Source of the DNA: Candidatus Binatus sp.
GTDB taxonomy: Bacteria > Desulfobacterota > Binatia > Binatales > Binataceae
DNA length: 64,000 bases
Direction: 5' to 3'
Assembly (NCBI RefSeq): GCF_030646925.1
Contig: NZ_JAUSKL010000063.1
Span: 1 to 64,000 of the forward strand
Shown here one piece after another: positions 16,397 through 35,452 of the stretch (position 1 is the stretch's first letter; every line of letters begins with the position of its first letter). The notes beneath the pieces are model-generated. The model had not been told where the DNA came from. It was given only the letters and a program-made list of their open reading frames with translations, and searched no databases. Made by a program: the position numbers and the translations under genes.

Positions 16397-16769
16397 AGGG
16401 GAGATCGAAACCGCAGATTACGCTGATTACGCCGATTAAGATCGGCGCGACTCTGCAGCGGACGACGGCCTTACTGTTCCGTCATCCCGAGCGAAGGCTG
16501 CCGGAGAGGTGGATCTCGATCGAGCAGCGCGACAGTTCGCCCCGCCTGAGCGATCCCACCCAAAGAGCGCTTCAGAAAAGTTTGTCATTCAGAGCGCAGC
16601 GAAGAATCCCGGATCTTATTCCTTGACTAGTGTTCACCCGACGACTGCACCCTCACCGCCTCGTCGCTCAGGCGCCTCGGCCGCCTCTCCCGCAACGGAG
16701 CGGGCGAGGCATTCGAAGGCAGCCTCCGGGATGATGGAGGAGGACTGCGGAATCTGCGGTTAGTTTTTT
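16397..16769. repeat. Intergenic region made of dispersed repeats
   Basis: No gene is seen. The span begins with CCGCAGATTACGCTGATTACG and contains GTCATTCAGAGCGCAGCGAA with GAATCCCGGATC (16588-16618). It then holds a long unit at about 16647-16735: CACCCTCACC...CCTCTCCCGCAACGGAGCGG, then GCGAGG and GGCAGCCTCCGGG. The last two belong to families repeated near 27419, 27530, 27607 and 35190-35450. Confidence 0.75.
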
Positions 16770-33118: not shown

Positions 33119-33281
33119 TCGGCGCGCCGCGGTCCTATCCCTCGCCCGTTCTTTAGGCGAGTATGTTAGGCTTGACACTCATCGTAAAGAGTACTGGCGG
33201 CGGCCTCAGCGCAGTGACAAGGCCAGCCCAACTACTTGTTGATAAAGGTGGTCAATATCGATTGCGATTAGGTGAGAAGTC

Positions 33282-33446
33282 ATGCCAAAAGCGAAACCGG
33301 TTTCATTGCATCCATTGACGTTCCATGAAGCGATTAAAGCCTTGGTCGGTGTTGATCCTGATAGCGTCGGCATTAGTTCTAAGCGCCGTAAAAAACGCAA
33401 ACGCGCAATCACCAAACCCAAGCCCACATCCAGCACAAAAAAGTAA
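33282..33446 (+). CDS. Small basic protein, 54 residues
   Basis: ATG 33282 follows AGGTGAGAAG and opens MPKAKPVSLHPLTFHEAIKA, then LVGVDPDSVGI, then a Lys/Arg-rich tail ending SSTKK. The LHPLxFxEAIxALVxVDP core followed by a basic tail resembles small proteins I have seen beside unknown genes in many soil bacteria, but I cannot name a family. It overlaps the first 122 nt of the next gene in another frame. Function unknown. If real, the upstream promoter would be near the left inverted repeat. Confidence 0.55.
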   Translation: MPKAKPVSLHPLTFHEAIKALVGVDPDSVGISSKRRKKRKRAITKPKPTSSTKK

Positions 33447-34224
33447 ACGCACCGCAGCACACCGCGAGGCATCCACCAGCCCAATATCGACGCCTAGCAA
33501 TCAAGGCGGTTCCAAACCAACCCCCGCAACCACCAATAATTATTCCTACAGCTACAATTACTACCGTCCATCCTCTGAAAGCCCGCCTGTTCCATTTCAA
33601 ATAGCCACCACTGTCATTTTGCTGCTTTTTACTGGTGGCCTGTGGTGGACTTCCATTCAACAATGGCGGGCTATCAAGCAATCGATAACCACCGATCGAC
33701 CATACTTGTTCGTCAGCGTTTTGAATTTTGGCGATAAGGCGTTTCATTTCAGCGTGCGTCTGCAAGATGACGAAGACTCTCCGATTGTGCGACAGGTTCC
33801 CGTCCCCATAGTTACCTTTACGAATTACGGACGAACGCCAGCGGTCATAAAGAGAGTCTTGCTCAGCTTCGAACCGTTCGAATGTTCCGACTACTCGCCG
33901 GGCAGGCATGAGCGGCACGGTGGATGGGACGATAGACTTTTTGAAGAACCCCTCGAACGACAGGGCGTCCCTGCTAATGGGAGCGTGCAATTCGAGGTTC
34001 TTAGTAAATTCAGCAAAGGCTTTGACGTATCGACTACCTTGTACAAAGAACTGATTAGCCTTGAAAAAGTCTTGGTTGCATACGGACGAATTGAGTATCG
34101 AGACGTTTTCAACGTGGAGTCGTTTTACACCACAAATTTTTGTTGGATTCTCGATATTACGAGCATGGAAAACATGGAAAACAGACTGTTTGTCGGTCCA
34201 TTGACCCACAACAGCCATACCTAA
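33325..34224 (+). CDS. Uncharacterised membrane-anchored protein
   Basis: A 299-residue protein as drawn. Residues 1-27 resemble a signal sequence (VLILIASALVLSAV, then NANA/Q). A Ser/Pro/Thr-rich spacer is followed by a membrane helix at 91-108 (FQIATTVILLLFTGGLWW), then a soluble domain with TDRPYLFVSV, VTFTNYGRTPA and VAYGRIEYRDVFN. The NYGxTxA and GxIxYxDxF elements also occur in the gene at 34461-35117, so both belong to one type. The small gene at 33282 overlaps its start, so the true N-terminus could differ. Function unknown. Confidence 0.6.
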   Translation: MKRLKPWSVLILIASALVLSAVKNANAQSPNPSPHPAQKSKRTAAHREASTSPISTPSNQGGSKPTPATTNNYSYSYNYYRPSSESPPVPFQIATTVILLLFTGGLWWTSIQQWRAIKQSITTDRPYLFVSVLNFGDKAFHFSVRLQDDEDSPIVRQVPVPIVTFTNYGRTPAVIKRVLLSFEPFECSDYSPGRHERHGGWDDRLFEEPLERQGVPANGSVQFEVLSKFSKGFDVSTTLYKELISLEKVLVAYGRIEYRDVFNVESFYTTNFCWILDITSMENMENRLFVGPLTHNSHT

Positions 34225-34493
34225 GCGCGAACGTATGTTGTTTTCGAGCCGCGCGAGAGAACAATGTTCGGACGTGAACTCATGTCGCGGGAATACCTAC
34301 TTGTCACAACGCAGATGCAATATGAAGCCCATAGCCACATAACCAACCAGCCAAAGATGAGCAGCAATCCACCAACGCCATTTTTGCGGTCAGTAAGCAA
34401 AATAGAGCCCCAGAGAAGAAGCGCCACCCAAACTATCGCGAGCGCGATACAAATAACCCGATGAGATGCTCGTTGACTTGGCCAAGTGCTCAA
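34221..34493 (-). CDS. Possible small two-helix membrane protein
   Basis: A 90-residue frame from TTG 34493 with two convincing membrane helices, VICIALAIVWVALLLWGSIL and VGGLLLIFGWLVMWLWASY, joined by a charged DRKNG turn. It lies in the gap between the two plus-strand island genes and meets the first tail to tail. It overlaps the start of 34461-35117 by 33 nt and has no strong ribosome site. It could be an antisense shadow of non-coding sequence. Confidence 0.35.
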   Translation of the reverse strand: MSTWPSQRASHRVICIALAIVWVALLLWGSILLTDRKNGVGGLLLIFGWLVMWLWASYCICVVTSRYSRDMSSRPNIVLSRGSKTTYVRA

Positions 34494-35117
34494 GCATGGA
34501 CGAACTTTTTCATAGCCGGGTTTACCGGCCTGCTCATGCTTTTCACGTTGTGGCAGTATCAGTTGGGCGTAAGCACGCAGCGTGCGGCGGTATATCTCGG
34601 GTTGCCGAACGGGCAAGTTGCGGATTTTGTCGGGGAAAAAGACACCGATCAACTGGTGCTCTATTTTCGCAACTACGGCGCTTCCACCGCCGAAAACACC
34701 GTGATCGAATTTTGGCCAGTGGTCGCAGAAATCGGCGATACCGTCCAACAATGCGTACCTAAATTTCAGGGCTTTAATCGGCGAGAACGGCATCTTCCGG
34801 GGATACAGATACCTCCCGGTTTCCCTTACGCCGCGTATATTGCTTTTCCTCACAATGATCGCGAGCGGATCGATGCGGGACAGGCTATTTTTAATATTAT
34901 AGGTCGAATTAGTTACACCGACGCGTTTGGGCAGTACTGTCAAACGTTCGCTATTCAACACCAGCACAGTCCGACCGCGTTCACGATTTCCACAGAGCCC
35001 AGTCCCGATTTTTGCGACACCGCAAAGGGACACGCCATGATCTTCATGTCCGTGAAAACTTCCCCAACTGAACGCACCGAATCGAAGCCCCTCACACTTC
35101 GTCGCTGTCCGCCTTAG
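34461..35117 (+). CDS. Uncharacterised membrane-anchored protein, related to 33325-34224
   Basis: A 218-residue protein with one N-terminal membrane helix (about residues 15-34, FFIAGFTGLLMLFTLWQYQ). A soluble domain follows with QRAAVYLGLPN, LVLYFRNYGASTAEN and GRISYTDAFGQYCQTF. The order helix - strand - NYGxTxA - GxIxYxDxF mirrors the other island protein. Small Cys-containing loops (C in QYCQTF and PDFCDTA) are present near the end. No known domain is recognised. It ends 46 nt before the right terminal repeat. Confidence 0.6.
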   Translation: MRCSLTWPSAQAWTNFFIAGFTGLLMLFTLWQYQLGVSTQRAAVYLGLPNGQVADFVGEKDTDQLVLYFRNYGASTAENTVIEFWPVVAEIGDTVQQCVPKFQGFNRRERHLPGIQIPPGFPYAAYIAFPHNDRERIDAGQAIFNIIGRISYTDAFGQYCQTFAIQHQHSPTAFTISTEPSPDFCDTAKGHAMIFMSVKTSPTERTESKPLTLRRCPP

Positions 35118-35184
35118 TTCGGAGTAACACCGGCCTGTCGCCCACATGTGGCCGACCAGCACCATGAGTGTCAAGCCTAACATA

Positions 35185-35452
35185 ATCCCGTTATTTTACG
35201 GGAGAGGGCGCCGAAGTCGCGGAACGCGACGAGGCAGGTGAGGGTGCTGGATCGCGCGGTAATGCACTCTCGTGTCGGATTCTCCATGACTAGCCGCCTA
35301 AGCCGGTGGCAGCGAAATCGCAGATGAATAGAGTCTTGGGTTGGTGCACTTGCAGGCGATCCGGCACCCTCACCTACCCGCCGCAAGAGCGGCGGGCCTC
35401 CTCTCCCGTAAAATAACGGGCGAGGTATCGGACGGCAGGCTCCGCTCAAGAT
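35185..35452. repeat. Two opposed copies of the CACCCTCACC...ACGGGCGAGG repeat
   Basis: The gap 35118-35480 has no gene. A minus-strand copy spans about 35187-35250 and ends at the island repeat. A plus-strand copy spans about 35362-35450 with CTCTCCCGTAAAATAACGGG and GCGAGGTATCGGACGGCAGG. They form an imperfect palindrome about 265 bp long. Confidence 0.75.

Follow-up and report, generated by a model that had tools for sequence, protein, structure and literature searches.

The window, a stretch of 64,000 nucleotides from Candidatus Binatus sp. that was analysed as a whole, carries an element of 2035 bp whose edges were placed at 33156 and 35190 by alignment with relatives, each uncertain by about one base. 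Between its inverted ends lie a small basic ORF and two genes for membrane proteins, here termed cargo 1 and cargo 2 (Table 1). The original prediction, made from the letters of the window, had singled out a lower-GC island with a perfect inverted 21-mer at both ends, related ORFs inside and no transposase, and all of these features were borne out. The GC content of the stretch was 0.50, compared to 0.59−0.67 in 500-base windows of the flanking genes. No transposase was found to be coded inside the window copy when its ORFs were inspected and searched by profile scan and by tblastn with the transposase of the relatives, and an Rfam scan of 33000−35600 gave no match. The two cargo proteins were related in a comparison by hhalign of the family profile of the 299-aa protein with the 218-aa protein (probability 90.5%, pairwise E 1.4e-6).

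Table 1. Positions of the element, its genes and its target site in the window
Feature	Position	Strand	Remarks
Left palindrome arm	33140..33148	+	CCTCGCCCG
Left putative target duplication, decayed	33149..33155	+	TTCTTTA versus TTATTTTA
Left terminal inverted repeat	33156..33182	+	GGCGAGTATGTTAGGCTTGACACTCAT
Approximate junction of internal deletion	33183..33193	+	Alignment with relatives
Retained segment, behind the transposase gene in relatives	33193..33281	+	Short inverted repeat half, then spacer
Small basic ORF, conserved	33282..33446	+	54 aa, MPKAKPVSLHPLTFHEAIKALVG...
Cargo protein 1	33325..34224	+	299 aa; start overlaps small ORF in +1 frame
Cargo protein 2	34461..35117	+	218 aa; membrane helix (by eye) and C-terminal domain as in cargo 1
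Right terminal inverted repeat	35164..35190	-	CGGGATTATGTTAGGCTTGACACTCAT
Right putative target duplication	35191..35198	+	TTATTTTA
Right palindrome arm	35199..35207	+	CGGGAGAGG
Intact palindrome copy, empty-site reference	35400..35425	-	

The 21-mer TATGTTAGGCTTGACACTCAT is present at 33162−33182 on the forward strand and at 35164−35184 on the reverse strand, with zero mismatches between the two inverted copies. The chance expectation of such an inverted 21-mer was 0, as determined from 100 dinucleotide shuffles with up to three mismatches allowed, and the inverted match between the ends reaches 27 bases at 93%. The left end begins GGCGAGTATG and the right end CGGGATTATG, the edge base of the latter being ambiguous with the target. 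In ISApl4, one member of the IS1595 family, the inverted ends start with GG, a feature that the text consulted does not give as defining the family. The search for the 21-mer in this genome and its relatives that had been proposed gave one pair of ends in the 4.58-Mb genome and like ends in relatives. With up to three mismatches allowed, an 18-base core of the end was located at four places in this genome, namely the two ends in the window and two others. These other matches, each with three mismatches, have no outward GATTAT-type prefix and are not on contigs carrying PF12762 loci. No exact match to the 18-mer was found in viral contigs.

The element interrupts a REP-like palindrome. When the left arm, the right copy of the loop and the right arm are joined (CCTCGCCCG-TTATTTTA-CGGGAGAGG), the result is the reverse complement of 35400−35425 at 26 of 26 positions. 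The dispersed repeat was indeed split at the edges of the island, as had been proposed, with these two arms as its halves; AACGGG was not the duplicated target, which would instead be the 8-base loop, of which the left copy has decayed by one substitution and one missing base relative to the right. Intact palindromes of the form CCTC[GT]CCCG-N8-CGGG[AC]GAGG lie in the window at 16684−16709, 27434−27459, 27645−27670 and 35400−35425. The whole genome has 94 exact copies of CCTC[GT]CCCG-N(3-10)-CGGG[AC]GAGG, and nearly all of the copies listed have an 8-base loop.

The six genomes of the same genus yielded no true empty site, as the acsA and M50 genes matched on different contigs there. The flanks available in these genomes (the acsA side in six, with only 188 bases in G004, and the M50 side in four) contain neither the element nor the palindrome. 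That the stretch holds vertically inherited chromosomal genes, whose flanks form an inverted repeat by chance, is scarcely credible given the same-genus flanks without the element, the zero chance expectation of the repeat and the palindrome that is restored once the element is removed. What speaks for such inheritance is a homologue of cargo 2, matched in three of 96 genomes including the own genome, which in the other two (G007 and G022) is found in short loci of 3.4 and 2.5 kb, respectively, that have neither such ends nor the small ORF.

The use of the palindrome as a target was analysed in the own genome for a set of 11 elements, consisting of the window element and 10 fetched PF12762 loci. 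Both ends were defined in eight of these. Both arms flank five of the eight (window, L073, L076, L078 and L079) and do not flank L072, L077 and L080; for L071, L074 and L075, where one end was defined, the arm was present in none. Both arms were present at 206 of 200,000 points drawn at random from the same sequence. Insertion into the palindrome was above chance, which classes these elements as REP-targeting in this one genome. A further end-like sequence with an arm, at 3859 of L080, was left out of the count. The duplications themselves varied. In L076 the loop is perfectly duplicated over 8 bases (TAACTTAA), and L077, whose site is not palindromic, likewise shows a perfect duplication of 8 bases (GGAGAGTT). 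L079 is flanked on either side by CAACAAAG provided that its right edge is shifted by one base, and L073 and L078 have no clean 8-base duplication. In some copies GGG or GGGCGAG is common to the end and the arm, so that the edges are uncertain by at least one base.

Several of these loci showed features of their own. A 3.0-kb IS1595-type unit with 24-base inverted ends (L078 1379−4399, G000:C36) spans the transposase and a tRNA-like match, the latter scored by Rfam as tRNA at 2121−2218 with 49 bits, while ARAGORN finds none. This locus also has an ORF that, as we take it, resembles a Panacea/SocA-type antitoxin. The IS1595-type elements L071 and L077 (G000:C46 and G000:C24) adjoin pairs of TTTCACGTGAAAC, presumably the parS motif.

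The 18-base core, with up to two mismatches, was found in 13 of 96 genomes, the own genome included. In seven of the 13 (G000, G001, G004, G006, G014, G029 and G038) at least one match continued outward as an element end with a GATTAT-type prefix. The remaining six (G037, G049, G053, G060, G080 and G093) showed no outward continuation and are at chance level, because a control in which the pattern was read backward also matched six of 96 genomes. The genome G038 has 12 core places; the prefix is present at 11 of them, where the sequence goes on as GGGGATTAT or in a form like GGTAATTAT; the ends of its copies are mostly GGGGATTATG, and the places lie mostly near contig ends, as expected of a multicopy element. 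Three loci (G006:C11, G014:C51 and G038:C96) have, between such ends, the order transposase, small ORF, membrane-protein gene. The 316-aa transposase of G006 matched DDE_Tnp_IS1595 (PF12762) with 134 bits and Zn_ribbon_IS1595 (PF12760) with 38 bits, both over the cut-off, and scored 197.8 bits against the NCBIfam IS1595 model; a zinc ribbon is typical of the transposase in most groups of the IS1595 family. The G014 transposase was identified by tblastn to that of G006. In the G038 copy the transposase frame is broken and the target duplication matches at 7 of 8 bases. The same order was seen in L113, a 3.1-kb contig filed as Acidobacteriaceae, which has a transposase-like frame, a small ORF and a cargo-like ORF. 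L113 bears the sole Acidobacteria name among 10 general-contig loci, the rest being named Deltaproteobacteria, Proteobacteria or uncultured proteobacterium. In G006:C11 (L030 5264−8574), one transposase and a pair of cargo genes are enclosed by three element ends that are nearly identical, one of them inverted relative to the other two, which suggests that the target was hit twice.

The element type, which the original prediction had not recognised, can thus be recognised through the transposases of the relatives as that of the IS1595 family. The transposase with matching ends that it had proposed to look for was not found in the own genome, and those relatives have one between like ends. In the own genome the 10 fetched PF12762 loci were compared with the window's ends at up to three mismatches and, where defined, their ends differ. 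Some details of the ends could be read otherwise: GTTAGGC presumably fits the integron attC core pattern, and a shorter repeat with TA at either edge would, we assume, fit IS630. It is nevertheless highly improbable that the element is of another kind, such as an integron-type cassette or an IS630-type or Tn3-type MITE, with an accidental likeness to IS1595 ends, since it has inverted ends on both sides with a putative 8-base duplication, and IS1595 transposases occur in elements with like ends, small ORF and cargo. The integron cassette and the TA-duplicating IS630-type readings were dropped, as these transposases sit between like ends.

The loss of the transposase gene was examined by alignment of the region upstream of the small ORF. 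The window copy joins, a few bases inward from its left end, the repeat ACTGGC-GCGGCCTCAG, which in the relatives sits directly behind the transposase gene. The transposase gene was thus lost by an internal deletion, with the segment behind it kept. Other loci that lack a transposase match have different upstream junctions, for example L031 and L082, and L081 retains the last codons of a transposase. On this sequence comparison, the differing junctions and the L081 remnant argue against the spread of one deleted form. Matches to the small ORF numbered 19, in 12 of the 41 genomes of the family, and 12 of these loci had an E of 1e-20 or better. A transposase match at an E of 1e-3 adjoins the small ORF in three of the 12, and G012, with only 206 bases upstream, was left out of the transposase-less tally, in which eight loci were assessable. 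An open cargo ORF of the cargo 1 family (276−324 aa) was present in six of the eight, a count that is biased by the loci having been found via the neighbouring small ORF; of the other two, G010 has no cargo ORF and G018:C319 has a different ORF. The six open frames are suggestive of selection on the cargo, and the cargo may be of benefit to the host.

The small ORF of the window is single-copy in its own genome and exhibits 64−79% identity to six of nine relatives and 53−54% to the other three. Of the 17 IS1595-type loci that were examined, 14 have a small basic ORF behind the transposase; under the limits used, none was found behind L072, L073 and L074. That of L076 overlaps the end of the transposase in another frame and may be due to chance. 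The start of cargo 1 lies within the small ORF, 43 bases in and in its +1 frame. An ATG is present at this position in 13 of 13 sequences and opens into a cargo of the cargo 1 family in 10. In L113 a stop interrupts the leader frame and the cargo begins further on, L086 carries a different cargo and L084 has none. At two loci (G004:C198 and G012) a stop interrupts the small ORF but leaves the cargo frame open. Within the overlap, differing codon pairs were 411 synonymous to 692 not in the frame of the small ORF, 174 to 908 in the cargo frame and 35 to 1044 in the third frame. By its synonymous changes, the frame of the small ORF is favoured over that of the cargo, with the reservation that the pairs are not independent and that the geometry of overlapping frames contributes to the counts.

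Cargo 1 has a signal-like N-terminus (by eye), a low-complexity linker, a membrane helix and a beta-sandwich. Ten relatives show 22−25% identity to the window protein, with 12 invariant columns, and share the pattern RP-x-L-x-V ... N-x-G-x-x-P-A ... G-x-I-x-Y after the membrane helix. A structure model (mean pLDDT 59.8, pTM 0.47) consists of a disordered linker and a beta-sandwich of moderate confidence. The Foldseek matches to this model were a mixed set that included many beta-sandwiches (best E 7.1e-4, query TM 0.23), and they were not used for function. Nothing scored over the curated cut-off when the cargo proteins were searched against Pfam, NCBIfam, PADLOC and PHROGs, and the weak library matches, the best of which was NCBIfam DnaK on the G038 cargo (E 0.0043), were taken as chance. 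The best match among sequences of solved structures had an E of 0.5, tblastn of both cargo proteins against plasmids gave none, and 136 pattern matches to the cargo profile in viral contigs included no relative. A second type of membrane-protein ORF, alike by eye, was seen at L073 3059−3742, in an own-genome IS1595-type element, and at L086 4703−5386, beside the small ORF of G018:C319. The cargo proteins form a family that has no name in the libraries searched, and their role is open to testing.

One reading of these genes is that a clade of IS1595 elements has become a delivery system for exported or membrane-anchored proteins, with the +1 frame of the small ORF as a fixed export leader, a fast-changing cargo kept after the transposase decays, and insertion steered into 8-base REP loops as intergenic landing sites. 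We regard this as rather unlikely. In its favour are the ATG present in all 13 sequences and its open run into a cargo in 10, the lower identity of the cargo to that of the window (22−25%, versus 53−79% for the small ORF), the open cargo frames at transposase-less loci and the two loci with a stop in the small ORF alone. Against it, the conserved start may be a by-product, the overlap ATG arising from conserved His-Glu codons of the small ORF, the loci L113, L086 and L084 depart from the pattern, such a leader is missing from cargo 2 in the window, and the synonymous changes favour the frame of the small ORF.

Based on the ends, the gene order, the junction and the target repeat, the stretch very probably derives, by internal deletion, from an insertion sequence of the IS1595 family that carried passenger genes (tIS), and it is located in a REP-like palindrome. 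The window copy itself has no transposase with a DDE_Tnp_IS1595 domain, and the assignment of its descent therefore rests on the relatives, which do. The ancestor would have had terminal inverted repeats of about 27 bp and an IS1595 transposase, together with the small basic ORF as an accessory and a cargo gene for a membrane protein. It would have entered the 8-base loop of the palindrome by DDE transposition, duplicating the loop. The transposase gene was removed, either before or after insertion, by a deletion that begins roughly 10 bp inside the left repeat and runs to the repeat behind the gene. The remnant retains the two ends together with the small ORF and a pair of cargo genes, which is the anatomy of a mobile insertion cassette. 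In principle, a transposase recognising its ends could mobilise it in trans.

The original prediction of a non-autonomous mobile cargo cassette within a repeat was upheld in so far as the ends are like those of relatives, the cargo lies beside IS1595 transposases there and the repeat is restored on removal; current mobility is doubtful. The ends are still identical over 21 bases despite the lost transposase, and MIC elements moved in trans are described in the available text of PMC3913671. It is nonetheless quite improbable that the cassette is still active, its cargo being mobilised in trans through a transposase that is present elsewhere in the cell or arrives by transfer. The ends and the small ORF are present in one copy only, the other core matches (with three mismatches) are off the PF12762 contigs, whose ends differ where defined, and the other transposase-less relatives examined have different upstream junctions. 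The window element is probably stranded. Because its transposase is missing and none that matches was found in the genome, it is not classed here as an IS1595 insertion sequence in its own right, and its present mobility is unlikely. An island in an uncultured bacterium that had not been recognised becomes readable as an IS1595-family element with passengers that has lost its transposase.

Among known systems, the IS1595-family tIS (such as MTnSag1/tISSag10 and tISCpe8) also combine terminal inverted repeats and a passenger gene, they have target duplications, of which the window copy has a putative one, and the relatives of the window element share their IS1595 DDE transposase. In the sections consulted of PMC5704250 and PMC8101967, 8 bp is the usual target duplication of the IS1595 family, and passenger genes in tIS are described. 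Unlike these tIS, the window copy has no transposase, its cargo is a membrane protein and it sits in the loop of a palindrome. With mobile insertion cassettes, as defined in the corresponding text of PMC3913671, where the first is MIC231 of Bacillus cereus, it shares two insertion sequence-type inverted ends, a cargo gene, a putative target duplication and the lack of a transposase. MIC231 derives from IS231 and was mobilized in trans by the IS231A transposase, whereas such movement of the window element would be hypothetical. In anatomy it is a mobile insertion cassette-like element, and by descent an IS1595-family element with passenger genes. The insertion into dispersed extragenic palindromes resembles that of the REP-targeting insertion sequences IS1397, ISKpn1, IS621 and ISRm22 (PMC1525189). 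The families named as REP-targeting in the part of that article drawn on here are IS3, IS110, IS4, IS256 and IS5, with IS1595 not among them; its table does place a few copies of IS1016, a group of the IS1595 family, at REPs of Neisseria (2 of 17 and 1 of 3). The newer aspects are the targeting of the REP loop and the overlap of the cargo start with a conserved small ORF, and the former suggests that IS1595-type elements would join the insertion sequences that use REP-like palindromes, with the length of the loop equal to that of the target duplication.
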